Below, piece after piece: positions 26,811-34,640 of a stretch of DNA of 34,640 bases. Under the pieces are notes generated by a model that was not told the DNA's origin, did no database searches, and saw only the letters and a program-made list of their open reading frames with translations. Every line of letters starts with the position of its first letter. Positions within the stretch are counted from its first letter, which is position 1. The translations under genes were made by a program, and so were the position numbers. The DNA comes from Nocardioidaceae bacterium. GTDB lineage: Bacteria > Actinomycetota > Actinomycetes > Propionibacteriales > Nocardioidaceae. The stretch is taken from the NCBI GenBank assembly GCA_025980475.1, contig JAICXL010000024.1, forward strand, positions 1 to 34,640, written 5' to 3'.

Positions 26811-27767
26811 TCACTTGCTGCTTGCGATTGGTCGGATGTCGATCAGGTCTGCGGCGCCGTCGGCGATCATCTCCTCAGCCAGCGCCCGGCCGAGCGCCTC
26901 CGGATCGGTGGTCGGCCCGGAGGCGGAACGTCGCACGGCGACGGCACCGTCGGTGCTCGACGCCACCGCCCGCAGCCACAGCTCCTCGCCCTGCTCACCC
27001 TCGGCGACCTCGGCAAGGGCGCCGACCGGTGCTGCGCAGCCGGCCTCGAGGACGGCCAGCAGGGTGCGCTCGGTGGTCACGCACGCGCGGGTGCGCGGGT
27101 CGTCCAGGGCCTGGCGTACGGCGTCCACCAGCTCGTCGTCCGCCCGGCACTCCACCGCGAGCGCCCCCTGGCCGGCTGCCGGGAGCACCTGCAGCGGGTC
27201 GAGCACCTCGGAGATCTCATCGAGCCGCTCGAGCCGGGCCAGCCCCGCCCGGGCGAGCACGACGGCGTCGAGCTGGCCGGAGCGCACCTTGCCGATGCGG
27301 GTGTCGACGTTGCCGCGGACGTCGACCAGGTCGAGGCCGATCCCGAGCGCGCGAAGCTGGGCGACGCGCCGGGGGGCGCCGGTGCCGACGCGGGAGCCCG
27401 TGGGCAGCTCGGCCAGGGTGAGCCCGTCGCGGGCGACCGCCACGTCGCGCGGGTCCTCGCGCACGGGGACGGCCGCGAGCGCGATCCCCTGCGCGGGGGC
27501 GGTGGGAAGGTCCTTGAGGGAGTGGACGGCGACGTCGACGTCACCGCGCAGCAGGGCGTCGCGCAGCGCGCTGACGAAGACGCCGGTGCCACCGAGGGCG
27601 GCGAGCGACGCCCGGCTGACGTCGCCCTCCGTGGTCACGTCGACGAGCTGCACCGGCCGGCCCAGTGCCTGCTCGAGCCGTGCGGCGACCTGGCCGCTCT
27701 GGGCGCGGGCGAGGGCGGAGGCACGGGTGCCGACGCGCAGCGTCGTCGGGGACGTCGCGGGGGTCAT
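26811..27767 (-). CDS. hemC: Hydroxymethylbilane synthase (porphobilinogen deaminase)
   Basis: Polymerises four porphobilinogen molecules to hydroxymethylbilane, the substrate of HemD. The 318-residue protein has LRVGTRASALARAQSGQVA at the start, AVHSLKDLPT, RVGTGAPRRVAQL, DVRGNVDTRIGKV and the dipyrromethane cofactor cysteine C244 in LEAGCAAPVGA. Length is typical. The ATG at 27767 overlaps the hemA stop by 4 bp (ATGA). Confidence 0.96.
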   Translation of the reverse strand: MTPATSPTTLRVGTRASALARAQSGQVAARLEQALGRPVQLVDVTTEGDVSRASLAALGGTGVFVSALRDALLRGDVDVAVHSLKDLPTAPAQGIALAAVPVREDPRDVAVARDGLTLAELPTGSRVGTGAPRRVAQLRALGIGLDLVDVRGNVDTRIGKVRSGQLDAVVLARAGLARLERLDEISEVLDPLQVLPAAGQGALAVECRADDELVDAVRQALDDPRTRACVTTERTLLAVLEAGCAAPVGALAEVAEGEQGEELWLRAVASSTDGAVAVRRSASGPTTDPEALGRALAEEMIADGAADLIDIRPIASSK

Positions 27768-29053
27768 GTCACGCCCTCCGCCCGGGTCACGGCCTGCACG
27801 GCCTCGGGGTCGAGCGCGAAGAGCTCGGCGAGGGCGGCGGCGTAGGAGACCGCGCCGACCTCGTTGGCGAGCTCCTTCACGCGCACCGTGGGCTGGTGGA
27901 GCAGCTTGTCGGCGACCCGGCGCACGGCCTGCTCCACCTCGGCGCGGGCGTCGTCGTCGAGACCGGGCAAGCGGCCGAAGACGCGCGCCAGCTCGGCGTC
28001 GACCACGCCGGTCGCCATCGTCCGCAGCGCGATGACCGTGGGGGTGACGCTGGCCGCGCGCCGCAGCGCAAGGTAGGAGGTGATCTCCTCGGCGACGATG
28101 CGCCGGACGTCCTCGACACCGACGGTGTCCTCGTCGTGCGCCTCGGCGAGCGTGGCCAGGTCGACCAGGTGCACCCCGGGCAGCTGCATCACGCCGGGGT
28201 CCACGTCGTGCGGCAGCGCGAGGTCGACGACGACGAACGGCTCGGTGCGGCCCGCCCGGCCGGCGGCCACGGTCGACTCGCCGACCACCACGCCCACCGC
28301 GCCGGTGCAGGAGACGAGCAGGTCGGCGCCCTCGATGGCGTAGCGGAGGTCCCCGAGCGGGACGGCCGAGGCGGCGTAGGACTCCGCCAGCCTGGCCGCG
28401 CGGTGGGGCGTGCGGTTGGCCACGGCGATCGACTCGACGCCCGAGCGCGCGAGGGTGGCGACCGCCAGGGCCGCCATCGAGCCGGCACCGACCACGACGG
28501 CCCGCTTGCCCTCGAGGGTGCCGAGGTGCCCCGTCGCCCGGTCGAGCGCGGCACCGACCAGCGACGGGGCAGCCCGGTCGATGTCGGTCTCGGCGTGGGC
28601 GCGCTTGCCGACCCGCAGGGCCTGCTGGAAGAGCGAGTTCAGCGCGGCGCCGACACCGCCGTTCTCCTGCGCGACCCGCAAGGCCTCCCGCGCCTGCCCG
28701 AGGATCTGAGCCTCGCCGACGGCCAGCGAGTCCAGCCCTGAGGTGACGTGGAAGAGGTGCGAGACGGCCCCGTCGTCGTAGTGGACGTAGAGGTGCGGGA
28801 GCAGGTCGTCGAGCTGCTCGCCGGCGCGCTCGCAGAGCAGCCCCGAGATCGCCTCGACGCTGCCGTGGAATCGGTCGACGTCGGCGTAGACCTCGACGCG
28901 GTTGCAGGTCGCCAGCACCGCCGCCTCCGCGACGTGCTCGTTGTCCAGGGCCGCGTGGACGAGCTTGGCCACGTCGTCACCCTCGAGGGCGACCTTCTCC
29001 AGCAGCGAGACGGGGGCCGACCGGTGCGACATCCCGACCACGAGAACGCTCAC
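27764..29053 (-). CDS. hemA: Glutamyl-tRNA reductase
   Basis: First committed step of C5-pathway tetrapyrrole synthesis: NADPH reduction of glutamyl-tRNA to glutamate-1-semialdehyde, the substrate of HemL. The 429-residue protein has the catalytic cysteine C50 in VLATCNRVEVYADV, VGEAQILGQAREAL, the NADPH Rossmann motif VVVGAGSMAALAV, VANRTPHRA and a C-terminal dimerisation helix region. The GTG start at 29053 overlaps the rex stop by 4 bp (GTGA), so haem entry is translationally tied to the redox sensor. Confidence 0.96.
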   Translation of the reverse strand: MSVLVVGMSHRSAPVSLLEKVALEGDDVAKLVHAALDNEHVAEAAVLATCNRVEVYADVDRFHGSVEAISGLLCERAGEQLDDLLPHLYVHYDDGAVSHLFHVTSGLDSLAVGEAQILGQAREALRVAQENGGVGAALNSLFQQALRVGKRAHAETDIDRAAPSLVGAALDRATGHLGTLEGKRAVVVGAGSMAALAVATLARSGVESIAVANRTPHRAARLAESYAASAVPLGDLRYAIEGADLLVSCTGAVGVVVGESTVAAGRAGRTEPFVVVDLALPHDVDPGVMQLPGVHLVDLATLAEAHDEDTVGVEDVRRIVAEEITSYLALRRAASVTPTVIALRTMATGVVDAELARVFGRLPGLDDDARAEVEQAVRRVADKLLHQPTVRVKELANEVGAVSYAAALAELFALDPEAVQAVTRAEGVT

Positions 29054-29718
29054 GACGCGCCCACCTCCGTGGTCGGCACCCGGTCGGCACCGGACTTGCG
29101 CTGCTCGTGGTAGGCGAGGATCTGCAGCTCGCTGGAGAGGTCGACCTTTCGGACGTCCACCCCCGGGGGCACGGCGAGGATCCTCGGTGCGAAGTTGAGG
29201 ATGCTGCGGATCCCGGCCGCGACCATCTTGTCGCAGACCGCCTGGGCGGCCGAGGCCGGCGCGGCGATCACGCCGATCGCGACACCGTGCTCGCTGACGA
29301 TCGCCTCGAGCTCGTCGAAGTCGCGGACCTTCAGCCCGGCCACCACCTCGCCCTGGCGGGAGGTGTCGGCATCGAGCAGCGCCACGGTGCGGAAGCCTCG
29401 GGAGGAGAAGCCCGAGTAGTTCGCCAGCGCGTGGCCGAGGTTGCCGATGCCGACGATGACCACGGGCCAGTCCTGGGTCAGTCCGATCTCCCGGGCGATC
29501 TGGTAGCGCAGGTACTCGACGTCGTAGCCCACTCCCCGGGTGCCGTAGGAGCCGAGGTGGGAGAGGTCCTTGCGGAGCTTGGCGCTGTTGACGCCTGCGG
29601 CCGCGGCCAGCTCCTCGCTGGAGCAGGTGGCCTGCCCGGAGTCGAGCAGTGCGTTGAGTGCCCGCAAGTACACCGGCAGGCGCGCGACGGTCGCCTCGGG
29701 GATGCGTGAGCTGCTCAC
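29050..29718 (-). CDS. rex: Redox-sensing transcriptional repressor Rex
   Basis: Homodimeric repressor that leaves DNA when NADH is high, relieving repression of respiratory genes. The 222-residue protein has an N-terminal winged helix (about 1-80, with VNSAKLRKDLSHLGSYGTRG) and a Rossmann domain with VVIVGIGNLGHALANY (about 86-101) for NAD(H). Length is typical. The start is GTG at 29718. First gene of rex-hemA-hemC-cobA/hemD-hemB, the order also known from Streptomyces. Candidate operators precede its own promoter and nuoA. Confidence 0.96.
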   Translation of the reverse strand: MSSSRIPEATVARLPVYLRALNALLDSGQATCSSEELAAAAGVNSAKLRKDLSHLGSYGTRGVGYDVEYLRYQIAREIGLTQDWPVVIVGIGNLGHALANYSGFSSRGFRTVALLDADTSRQGEVVAGLKVRDFDELEAIVSEHGVAIGVIAAPASAAQAVCDKMVAAGIRSILNFAPRILAVPPGVDVRKVDLSSELQILAYHEQRKSGADRVPTTEVGAS

Positions 29719-31850: not shown

Positions 31851-32747
31851 GTGTCCCGCCGCGAGCACCGCCGACCGGCCGCGCCCCGTCCGGTCAACCT
31901 GCAGCGCCGCTCGCAGCTGGCCGGAGAGGCCGCCGCCGCAGTGGCGGAGGTGGAGTCCGCGCTGGCGCCCGTGCCGGACCCGTGCGTGGCGGCGTTCTTC
32001 GACGTGGACAACACCGTCATGCAGGGCGCCTCGATCTTCCACCTCGCGCGCGGACTCTACCGTCGTCAGTTCTTCACCAAGCGCGACCTGGTGGCGATGG
32101 CCTGGAAGCAGACCTGGTTCCGCGTCGTCGGCGTGGAGCACCCTGACCATGTCGCCGACGCCCGAGAGGGTGCGCTGTCGTTCATCGCCGGGCACACCGT
32201 CGCCGAGCTGCAGGAGCTCGGCGAGGCGATCTTCGACGAGGCGATGGCGCACCGGATCTGGCCCGGCACCCGCGCCCTGGCCCAGCTCCACCTCGACCAG
32301 GGGCAGCGCGTCTGGCTGGTCACTGCGGCCCCGGTCGAGATCGCCGAGATCATCGCTCGCCGACTGGGGCTGACCGGCGCCATGGGCACCGTCGCGGAGC
32401 ACGAGGACGGGGTCTACACGGGCCGGCTCGTCGGAGAGATGCTGCACGGACCGGCCAAGGGCGAGGCGGTGCGCGCGCTGGCCGAGCGCGAGGGGCTGGA
32501 CCTCGCCCGCTGCTACGCCTACTCGGACTCCGCCAACGACCTGCCACTGCTGTCCCTGGTCGGCAACGCGTGTGCGATCAACCCCGACCGCAGGCTCCGC
32601 GACCACGCGCGGGCCGCGGGCTGGGTGGTGCACGACTACCGCACTGGACGGAAGGCCGCCCGTCTGGGCCTCGTGACCGCCGGGATCGCTGGGGCGATGA
32701 CCGGTGGCGTGGCCGTGGGCGCCGCGGTACGCCGACGCGTGCGCTGA
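31851..32747 (+). CDS. HAD-IB family phosphatase
   Basis: A 298-residue haloacid dehalogenase-type hydrolase of the SerB/CicA-like subfamily IB. Motif I is FFDVDNTVMQGAS (about 49-61, nucleophile Asp and acid/base Asp), motif II is WLVTAAPVEI, the motif III lysine is in GPAKGEAVRALA, and motif IV is CYAYSDSANDLPLLSLVG. A helical cap (about 65-150) fits phosphoserine or phospholipid head-group phosphatases; the substrate is unknown. The C-terminus ends in a short hydrophobic stretch (LVTAGIAGAMTGGVAVGAAV), possibly a membrane contact. The GTG start at 31851 follows a TAGGCT box. It lies directly before the BldN-like sigma gene. Confidence 0.88.
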   Translation: MSRREHRRPAAPRPVNLQRRSQLAGEAAAAVAEVESALAPVPDPCVAAFFDVDNTVMQGASIFHLARGLYRRQFFTKRDLVAMAWKQTWFRVVGVEHPDHVADAREGALSFIAGHTVAELQELGEAIFDEAMAHRIWPGTRALAQLHLDQGQRVWLVTAAPVEIAEIIARRLGLTGAMGTVAEHEDGVYTGRLVGEMLHGPAKGEAVRALAEREGLDLARCYAYSDSANDLPLLSLVGNACAINPDRRLRDHARAAGWVVHDYRTGRKAARLGLVTAGIAGAMTGGVAVGAAVRRRVR

Positions 32748-32850: not shown

Positions 32851-33624
32851 ATGACCGACCAGGGGACTTTGCGTGGCCTCGACGCGCTGCGGCGTGCCCT
32901 GGTCGAAGTCCTCTGTGCCGCGCAGCCCGTGCCGACCACCGGCCCGACCGTCGCCGGCTGGCTCCTCGCCGACTCCCTGACCGGCGCACCGGGCACCCGC
33001 CGGCAGGCGGCGTCGGGGGGCGGCTCCCGCGACGACTCCTCGATGGCGTCGTCGTCGGCGGCCGACGACGCCGAGGGGCGGCGGATCATCGCGCTGGTCG
33101 ACCTCGCCCGGTCGGGCGACAAGGAGGCGTTCGGCCAGCTCTACGACCACTACCACGTCTCGGTCTACCGCTTCATCTACTACCGCGTCGGCTCGGCCTC
33201 GCTCGCGGAGGACATCACCAGCGAGACGTTCTTCCGCGCACTGCGCAGCATGGGCTCCTTCCGCTGGCAGGGCAAGGACTTCGGCGCCTGGTTGATGACG
33301 ATCGCCCGCAACCTCACCGCGGATCACTTCAAGGCCGGCCGCACCCGGCTGGAGCAGTCCACCGAGGACATGCAGACGCTGGACACCACCGCGGACGGCC
33401 CCGAGCGCGAGGTGCTGGCGAGCCTGACCAACGAGGCACTGCTCGCCGCGCTGGGCGACCTGCCCGCCGAGCAGCGCGAGTGCCTGGTGATGCGCTTCCT
33501 GCAGGGCCTGTCGATCGCCGAGACGGCTGAGATCCTGGGGCGTTCCTCGGGCGCGGTGAAGCAGCTCCAGCTGCGCGGGGTGCGCAACCTGGCGAAGGTG
33601 CTCCCCAGGGAGGCGCACCGATGA
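32851..33624 (+). CDS. bldN: BldN-type ECF sigma factor with N-terminal extension
   Basis: Extracytoplasmic-function sigma factor of 257 residues. Sigma region 2 is about 80-165 (AFGQLYDHYHVSVYRFIYYR, AEDITSETFFRAL, WQGKDFGAWLMTIARNLTAD). Region 4 is about 195-250 (LGDLPAEQRECLVMRFLQGL, IAETAEILGRSSGAVKQLQL). This resembles Streptomyces BldN closely, as does the gene neighbourhood: BldN also lies by the rex-hem genes and is followed by its anti-sigma gene. The first 79 residues are a non-sigma extension; Streptomyces BldN is made as a proprotein with such an extension, so processing is possible here. The ATG at 32851 has a strong GGGGAGGGAG site; the frame upstream is non-homologous. Confidence 0.9.
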   Translation: MTDQGTLRGLDALRRALVEVLCAAQPVPTTGPTVAGWLLADSLTGAPGTRRQAASGGGSRDDSSMASSSAADDAEGRRIIALVDLARSGDKEAFGQLYDHYHVSVYRFIYYRVGSASLAEDITSETFFRALRSMGSFRWQGKDFGAWLMTIARNLTADHFKAGRTRLEQSTEDMQTLDTTADGPEREVLASLTNEALLAALGDLPAEQRECLVMRFLQGLSIAETAEILGRSSGAVKQLQLRGVRNLAKVLPREAHR

Positions 33625-33755
33625 CCCCCGTCACGACCGCCATAACCAACCGCCGGCGACTCTCGTTGACCGGGGTGAAAGCGTGTCCGTCCGGACGCAG
33701 CACCCCCGCGCCCACGCCGGCCACATCCCTCCAGCCCACAGGAACGCACCGATGA
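33621..33755 (+). other. Possible 44-codon ORF bridging the sigma and anti-sigma genes
   Basis: An ATG at 33621 overlaps the sigma stop (ATGA), and its TGA at 33753-33755 overlaps the anti-sigma ATG (ATGA). The 44-residue product is basic and Thr/Pro-rich with no recognisable domain. Both ends carry the same 11-bp direct repeat CGCACCGATGA (33614-33624 and 33745-33755), 131 bp apart. The region also holds a promoter-like sequence, so the frame may be chance or a translational bridge. No ribosome site of its own is evident. Confidence 0.3.
33641..33669 (+). promoter_or_regulatory. Candidate BldN-type promoter of the anti-sigma gene
   Basis: CATAAC (33641-33646), 17 bp, CGTTGA (33664-33669): 11 of 12 bases of the recalled Streptomyces consensus CGTAAC-N16-CGTTGA, with spacing longer by one. 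Transcription would begin near 33676, about 76 nt before the ATG at 33752. In Streptomyces the anti-sigma gene rsbN is, as I recall, itself a BldN target. Confidence 0.55.
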
Positions 33756-34640
33756 AGCCCCTCTTCCCGGCCCACCGCGCCGCTGAGGAGTTCGCCAGCG
33801 TGATCGACGGGCATCCCAGCGACGAGACATCCGACCGCTACGCCTCGCTGGCTGCTGTCGTGACCCTGATGCGTACCCAGGAGCATCCGGAGCCACGGCC
33901 CGAGTTCGCCGCCGACCTCCGTTCGCGCCTCATGCTCGCAGCCGAGGCCGAGCTGGTCCCCGCCCCGGTCGTCACCCCGGCGAGGCCTCAGGTCCGGCCG
34001 CCACGGCGTCGTGAGCGGCGTCTCGCCGCGGCCGCTGCCGCCCTCGTCCTCGTCGGCAGCGCAGCCGGCATGGCGACCGCGGCGCAGCGCAGCGTGCCCG
34101 GCGACCCGCTCTACCCGTTGAAGCTCGGCATGGAGCAAGCATCGGTGGCGCTGCACAGCAGCGACGCGGGCAAGGGCGCCGACCTGCTCGGTCAGGCCGA
34201 CACCCGTCTCTCCGAGGTCCAGGCACTCGTCGCCGACGGCGGCACGCCGGCCGACATCGGGGCGACGCTGCAGCGCTTCCAGGCCACAGCCGGCCACGGT
34301 GCCGACCTGCTCTTCCAGAGCTACCAGCAGGACGGCGACGACGCGTCCATCGCCACGGTGCGTTCGTTCGCGACCGACCAGATGGCGACGCTGGCCCGGC
34401 TGGCGCCCACGGCTCCGGCCGGGAGTGCCTCGGCGTTCCAGCGGGCCGCCGACACGGTGGCCGCCATCGACCAGCAGGCCCGGGTGCTGTGCGTCGCCTG
34501 CAGCCAGGCGACTGCGCTGTCGGTGCCCGGCGACCTCATCGGCCCCACGTCGGCCGCCTCTCTCACCACACTCATCCAGCACCCCGCGCAGATCGCCGGA
34601 GCCGAGGCCCGGGCGGCCCGGGCGCTGGCCGCTGCTGCGC
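33752..34640 (+). CDS. DUF5667 protein, probable RsbN-type anti-sigma factor (3' end outside window)
   Basis: The visible 296 residues begin MKPLFPAHRAAEEFASVIDG. The N-terminal 85 residues are predicted cytoplasmic and helical, the place where an anti-sigma domain would bind region 2 or 4. A basic stretch (PPRRRERR) leads into a single membrane helix (about 91-110). The extracytoplasmic part opens with AAQRSVPGDPLYPLKLGMEQA, the DUF5667 signature, and continues as helices with a short CVACSQ motif late in the visible part. Position after a BldN-like sigma gene and this topology point to the RsbN family. The ATG at 33752 has only a weak GGAA site. The reading frame is open to the window end. 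Confidence 0.8.
   Translation, partial: MKPLFPAHRAAEEFASVIDGHPSDETSDRYASLAAVVTLMRTQEHPEPRPEFAADLRSRLMLAAEAELVPAPVVTPARPQVRPPRRRERRLAAAAAALVLVGSAAGMATAAQRSVPGDPLYPLKLGMEQASVALHSSDAGKGADLLGQADTRLSEVQALVADGGTPADIGATLQRFQATAGHGADLLFQSYQQDGDDASIATVRSFATDQMATLARLAPTAPAGSASAFQRAADTVAAIDQQARVLCVACSQATALSVPGDLIGPTSAASLTTLIQHPAQIAGAEARAARALAAAA

Follow-up and report, generated by a model that had tools for sequence, protein, structure and literature searches.

A predicted BldN-type promoter in front of an rsbN-type anti-sigma gene of Nocardioidaceae, with a putative regulon of secreted and lipid-import functions

The gap between an ECF sigma gene and the DUF5667 gene that follows it in a Nocardioidaceae genome carries the motif CATAAC-N17-CGTTGA. 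We read this site, with a probability of about 0.88, as the promoter of an rsbN-type anti-sigma gene that the adjacent sigma factor would recognise, giving negative feedback, with a predicted regulon of secreted and lipid-import functions. BldN is a developmental sigma factor of Streptomyces, and the relatives considered here are mostly simple in shape. The stretch of DNA analysed, from here on the window, is 34,640 nucleotides long, and the genome it belongs to (2.76 Mb in 114 contigs, 92.8% complete) is referred to as the source genome. In the proposed mechanism, RNA polymerase carrying the sigma encoded upstream would read the site and transcribe the anti-sigma gene; an active sigma would thus cause its membrane-bound inhibitor to be made and would be recaptured by it. 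The earlier note on this DNA had proposed such a loop. Its parts are in place: the sigma is of BldN type, the anti-sigma is of RsbN type, and the promoter between the two is conserved. From these we infer recognition by the sigma, the transcription starts and the feedback itself. The features of the window are collected in Table 1.

Table 1. Features of the window around the sigma/anti-sigma gap (window coordinates).
Feature	Position	Strand	Remarks
hemA, glutamyl-tRNA reductase	27764..29053	-	NF000744, 535 bits
rex, redox-sensing repressor	29050..29718	-	NF003992, 364.7 bits
HAD-IB family hydrolase, upstream of the sigma gene	31851..32747	+	TIGR01490, above cut-off
BldN-type ECF sigma gene, 257 aa	32851..33624	+	structure, NCBIfam and Pfam matches
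-35 element CATAAC	33641..33646	+	CRTAAC kept in 80/80 loci (66 CGTAAC, 14 CATAAC; best 80 of 227)
-10 element CGTTGA	33664..33669	+	CGTT kept in 80/80 loci, last two bases vary (best 80 of 227)
predicted rsbN transcription start	33676..33677	+	putative, about 7 nt after the -10
rsbN-type anti-sigma gene	33752..34640	+	ATG placed via orthologues; gene cut by contig end
cytoplasmic anti-sigma domain, aa 1-67	33752..33952	+	alignment to 6dxo_D; model helices 6-19, 24-29, 31-42, 50-67
predicted membrane helix, aa 86-112	34007..34087	+	hydrophobic helix in model; presumably inserted in the membrane
DUF5667 domain, aa 114-216	34091..34399	+	Pfam; presumably extracellular
CxxC, aa 247-250	34490..34501	+	C247 and C250 invariant in 40/40 aligned

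The motif lies on the forward strand at 33641-33669, exactly where the earlier note had placed it, and is the sole match without mismatch to CRTAAC-N17-CGTTGA in the window. The remaining four matches have two mismatches each (shuffles predict 1.77 at two or fewer), and a first-order Markov model predicts about 2e-6 perfect sites for the gap and 0.001 for both strands of the whole window. From the end of the sigma ORF at 33624 there are 16 bases to the site and a further 82 to the ATG at 33752. This start (MKPLFPAHRAAEEF...) aligns with the MTPL and MTSL starts of orthologues, which fixes it and thereby confirms the gap length of 127 bp that had been claimed. The Streptomyces BldN consensus appears as CGTAACN16CGTTGA in the accessible part of PMC2375139; as stated in the earlier note, the window site agrees with it at 11 of 12 bases, with a spacer of 17 in place of the printed 16. 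We do not regard the longer spacer as a defect, since it is N17 in all of the best 80 of 227 loci. The putative start of rsbN transcription was placed by analogy with the other predicted targets, 17 of 60 of which have a start codon 6-7 nt past the -10. An own site for the sigma gene was rejected, as the best match within 150 bases upstream of it has three mismatches; control by the sigma thus appears to cover the inhibitor gene and not the sigma gene itself.

Two further patterns were seen by eye in the rsbN leaders of the genus. An imperfect palindrome starting from G[AT]AC at the predicted start, just after the -10, is visible in 10 of 22 leaders (e.g. L019, L022 and L020); it has a partly inverted half-site, is degenerate in the source genome, and resembles a LexA box (tCGAAC-N4-GNNCGa in the accessible text of PMC9380542). 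The leader of one genome (L016, G001) has a hairpin with a CCTCCCTCCC loop, akin to the loops of the guaA-linked RNA described below.

Conservation of the hexamers in close relatives, on which the earlier note had made its proposal depend, was borne out: the layout CRTAAC, spacer of 17, CGTT is intact in 80/80 related loci (the best 80 of 227). Within this set of the best 80 of 227, the -10 is CGTTGA in 26 loci, and mismatches to the 12 bases number zero in 26, one in 30 and two in 24 loci; one shuffle per gap gave 2-5 mismatches against 0-2 in the real gaps. In a phylum-wide sample, a sigma match at E 1e-45 was found in 22 of 346 genomes. Nine of these 22 belong to one genus with genomes of 7-10 Mb, which is Streptomyces by inference, because eight of its nine anti-sigma proteins begin almost like chain 6dxo_D (see below). 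In all nine, CGTAAC-N16/17-CGTTGT lies between the sigma and anti-sigma genes, with N17 in eight and N16 in one. At the distant loci L299, L300 and L305 the sites are weaker or absent.

Among solved structures, the closest to the sigma protein is 6dxo_A (178.7 bits, the next at 62.7), and it is thus nearest to BldN among the solved ECF sigmas. Pfam sigma-70 regions 2 and 4 are present, and the best NCBIfam family is TIGR02952, the BldN equivalog family (185.3 bits, the next at 103.4). The protein falls below the cut-off of that family (206.45), as do the match stretches of six relatives (173.7-192.8 bits), so that none of the seven proteins compared reaches it, and for this reason we use the term BldN-type. 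The window holds hemA, rex and an rsbN-type gene, and hemA, rex and rsbN may also make up a conserved neighbourhood of bldN in Streptomyces. No relatives of the sigma were found among viral contigs.

The downstream gene product matches DUF5667 (PF18915, E 3.4e-12 in Pfam). A profile of 40 sequences retrieves the 91-residue chain 6dxo_D at E 1.9e-4 as its sole PDB match below 0.1. This chain is labelled BldN in the PDB match table; we take it to be RsbN, judging by how long it is, how it aligns, and what the accessible part of PMC8103513 says of the BldN-RsbN complex. The profile thus gives the protein an N-terminal anti-sigma domain homologous to that of RsbN; the single anti-sigma sequence used as query did not find 6dxo_D, and Foldseek with the structural model found nothing in the PDB at an E value of 0.001 or below. 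In this model, whose mean pLDDT is 85, there are four short helices, a hydrophobic helix at 86-112 and a helical outer part, and on this basis the protein is probably membrane-anchored; its gene adjoins the sigma gene. An rsbN-type orthologue stands downstream of the sigma gene at 80/80 loci of the best 80 of 227, one of which (L094) was matched in part. The CxxC lies in the predicted outer part of the protein. Its alignment comprises the window's protein and 39 of the 80 orthologues, and that this cysteine pair is a thiol sensor, perhaps of redox state, is a guess.

The dependence of site frequency on the sigma, like the motif, its conservation and its target neighbourhoods, is read directly from the genomes. 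The 24 genomes of the genus contain 84 copies of CRTAAC-N16/17-CGTTGA, and the reversed control gives 3. The sigma was found in 22 of the 24; there are no perfect sites in the two genomes without it, nor in the sigma-positive G001, G002 and G023. Across the order, 381 sites (control 30) were counted in the 158 genomes with the sigma and 31 (control 51-52) in the 135 without it; over these 293 genomes it is thus only in sigma-positive ones that the motif is commoner than its control (p 4e-36, a value in which kinship of the genomes overstates independence). Within the family the figures are 2.34 against 0.27 sites per genome in 112 against 11 genomes (p 2e-5, with independence again overstated because the genomes are related). 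There are exceptions in both directions: no perfect site was found in 20 of the 158 sigma-positive genomes of the order, and one draft genome of 220 contigs (G289) has two sites though the sigma was not found in it. Chance origin of the motif was rejected on the basis of its conservation and the reversed-pattern controls.

For the predicted regulon, 81 of the 84 genus sites were analysed (the rsbN sites of G013, G018 and G019 were left out). Sixty of the 81 precede a convincing ORF within 130 nt and were kept for the secretion count, the others being dropped for weak coding signal, a distance over 130 nt, absence of an ORF, or by the rsbN name filter, which missed two rsbN genes that remain among the 60. 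By coding score, 11 of the 81 have no convincing target ORF, among them four that belong to the predicted RNA. According to a crude rule, an N-terminal hydrophobic segment is found in 44/60 target products versus 9/73 other ORFs of the same loci. The short distance from -10 to start codon in 17/60 targets suggests leaderless messages. In BLAST clustering, 16 sites fall into one group, of which the member that was scanned, L139, proved to be an S15 X-Pro peptidase; other clusters comprise an AYP-type family (7), small hydrophobic proteins (5), trypsin-like proteins (3), Mkl ATPases (2) and YrbE permeases (2). Two conserved families of small proteins also stand behind perfect sites, one beginning MELI... 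(L127, L137, L155, L196) and one MHALPAP... (L129, L114, L191); L137 and L129 have no Pfam match, and the crude rule finds no N-terminal hydrophobic segment in either family.

With a looser pattern the source genome has 11 sites, and some of its targets may be due to chance, as the control gave 3. The sites precede rsbN, two S15 peptidases, a pro-kumamolisin protein, a presumed trypsin-like protein (without Pfam match), a secretory lipase, the mkl-yrbE-mce operon behind rplJ-rplL, a Wzz/tyrosine-kinase gene (polysaccharide chain-length) followed by a UDP-sugar dehydrogenase, a periplasmic-binding protein and the guaA-linked RNA, while one, on contig C70, has no gene. Individual families were scanned with a position matrix trained on the rsbN sites and the 81 perfect sites, with mononucleotide shuffles and the reverse strand as null (99th percentile 5.3-7.5); the genus target tests are partly circular, since the matrix was trained partly on genus sites. 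For the trypsin-like family 21 of 24 matches were scanned (three further copies were left out), and the site is present at 19/19 best-match loci and absent from two tandem copies of the source genome. For S15 it is present at 12 of 13 loci, the thirteenth being incomplete, with a perfect site that is the same as that of L121.

The mkl/mceG operon consists of the ATPase gene, two yrbE genes and at least four mce genes, and adjoins rplJ-rplL. A site is found 5' of mkl/mceG in 21/21 genus orthologues (in the 21st, L237, where the locus had been truncated, about 72 nt before the gene), and a weak one (13.1) in one of eight paralogues. Outside the genus, 47 of the 75 genomes of the order that have mceG were scanned at this gene, including all six without the sigma. 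Among the 41 sigma-positive genomes examined, 40 reach a score of at least 13, and the 41st (G037) has CGTAAC-N16-AGTTGT, scoring 10.7. None of the six sigma-negative genomes has the site (scores of -4 or less). These six represent two genera only (g2 and g4); within g2 the site is present in 8/8 sigma-positive genomes examined versus 0/4 sigma-negative ones. At one mceG locus (G025) the reverse strand, used as control, gave a score as high as 18.6. The literature search found no paper linking BldN to an mce operon, and searches for MceG with sigma factors or promoters gave nothing on BldN-type control, as judged by the listings.

Near guaA in the source genome (G000:C89:11717-11852; L002:1501-1636), a BldN-type site is followed by a predicted RNA of about 100 nt with two hairpins carrying CU-rich loops. 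A perfect site with the strong-hairpin stretch occurs in at least six of the 24 genus genomes, including the source genome; the loop of the strong hairpin is CTCCCTCCCTCCCC in five and ACCCTCCCTCCCC in G003. The first hairpin, with a C-rich loop, begins 8 nt after the -10 in G000, G010, G016 and G020; in G008 the C-rich stretch is present and the predicted fold differs, and in G003 it is absent. All six stretches (95-125 nt, with ends chosen by us) fold better than 200/200 shuffles (z -4.2 to -7.4). Both partners vary in 11 of the 23 pairs of the consensus fold, and the covariation term is small (-1.13 of -37.4). Relative to guaA, the site faces away in four genomes and towards the gene in G003, where the stretch could be a leader of guaA; the stretch examined in G020 showed no guaA. 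Rfam returned nothing at gathering scores, and membership of ar14 (RF02344) was rejected at 24.7 bits versus a gathering score of 58.8 (E 0.44). The loops could pair with Shine-Dalgarno sequences.

Taken together, the sigma would drive surface and secreted functions in the genus, and mceG across three families of the order. The predicted outputs would be mce lipid import, S15 peptidases, trypsin-like and kumamolisin-type proteases, a lipase, the chain-length/tyrosine-kinase gene and a small RNA. Their biological sense may be digestion outside the cell, lipid uptake and a change of the cell surface.

The earlier note did not expect chaplins in such an organism. In fact, an LPXTG-anchored protein of the source genome carries three chaplin repeats, and chaplin-repeat genes are found in 6 of the 24 genus genomes, the source genome included. 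The three repeats of the source genome are in tandem (G000:C100:21186-21674; L141, L200), behind a co-oriented gene whose product ends PG.SPD. Chaplin control by the sigma was looked for in the source genome, and no BldN-type site was found upstream of this operon, so the chaplin control that characterises BldN is not seen there. Of the six chaplin loci, G009 has a strong site at the 5' end (CGTAAC-N16-CGTTTA) and G003 a weak one (8.5). The accessible text of PMC4255298, the only paper that a literature search on BldN and Nocardioides returned, confines convincing BldN matches to morphologically complex genera and describes Nocardioides as mycelial and sporulating.

A different ECF sigma whose consensus is similar might read the promoter, which would leave the adjacent sigma as a bystander. 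A loose search gives 8 to 55 candidate sigma relatives per genus genome, and a CGTT-type -10 is common to other sigmas, such as SigH with GGGAACA-N16-CGTT (accessible part of PMC2375139). We consider this improbable, as site frequency tracks the adjacent type of sigma over the 293 genomes and the mceG site is missing from every sigma-lacking genome scanned, four of them in the very genus, g2, whose sigma-positive members examined all have it. The boxes could also be a transcription factor site or part of an RNA leader, since conserved non-coding elements can be operators and a weak palindrome follows the -10 in some of the genus leaders. However, hexamers at a near-fixed spacing of 16-17, start codons so soon after the -10 in 17/60 targets, and a predicted guaA-linked hairpin that begins 8 nt past the -10 in four of six genomes all fit a promoter, and make the operator or leader explanation very improbable.

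A different question is whether the regulon of this predicted promoter is simply the ordinary BldN regulon of Streptomyces, with little that is new. The accessible part of PMC2375139 predicts 24 further BldN-type sites in S. coelicolor, and some of our predicted targets may already be known in Streptomyces. However, chaplins, rodlins, bldM and rsbN are the key targets named in the accessible parts of PMC4125116 and PMC4255298, the source genome has no site at its chaplin gene, and the mce link did not appear in the literature search; we therefore regard the ordinary regulon as rather unlikely. The preferred reading remains a promoter read by the adjacent sigma, with outputs of its own. A bolder version, to which we give slightly less than even odds, is that sigma-BldN was not at root a regulator of aerial hyphae: its core output in Propionibacteriales would be Mce lipid import, an exported set of hydrolases (proteases, peptidases and a lipase) and a small RNA covering ribosome-binding sites, under an anti-sigma whose outside thiol pair may sense redox state. 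If this is true, chaplin control would be an addition in the Streptomyces line. Conservation of the loop in relatives of mostly simple shape, together with its different predicted output, would show how a developmental switch has been rewired, and Mce lipid importers outside mycobacteria would gain a named regulator. The set of predicted core targets is small and conserved.

Among known systems, the ar14 small RNAs of Alphaproteobacteria likewise have two hairpins with C/U-rich loops, whereas the RNA described here lies near guaA behind a BldN-type site. The mkl/mceG and mce operons of other actinobacteria share the order of ATPase, yrbE pair and mce genes (accessible parts of PMC1810536 and PMC9947336), and differ from the present operon in the BldN-type promoter that stands in front of it here. 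The nearest likeness is to sigma-BldN and RsbN of S. venezuelae and S. coelicolor: in both cases an ECF sigma gene is followed by a gene for a membrane-type anti-sigma whose N-terminal domain matches RsbN, and a BldN-type promoter lies between them, presumably placing the inhibitor under its own sigma. The statement of the earlier note that BldN activates rsbN in Streptomyces agrees with the accessible text of PMC4255298, where S. venezuelae rsbN has its own BldN-dependent promoter. The differences are that the -35 of the window is CATAAC (with G in 66/80 loci, best 80 of 227), and that the CxxC present in 40/40 anti-sigma sequences here is lacking in eight of the nine Streptomyces-like anti-sigma ORFs and located elsewhere in the ninth. 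The predicted targets here are mce genes, secreted hydrolases and an RNA, in place of the chaplins of Streptomyces BldN. The feedback loop is thus of the kind known from S. venezuelae, and its predicted output is new.
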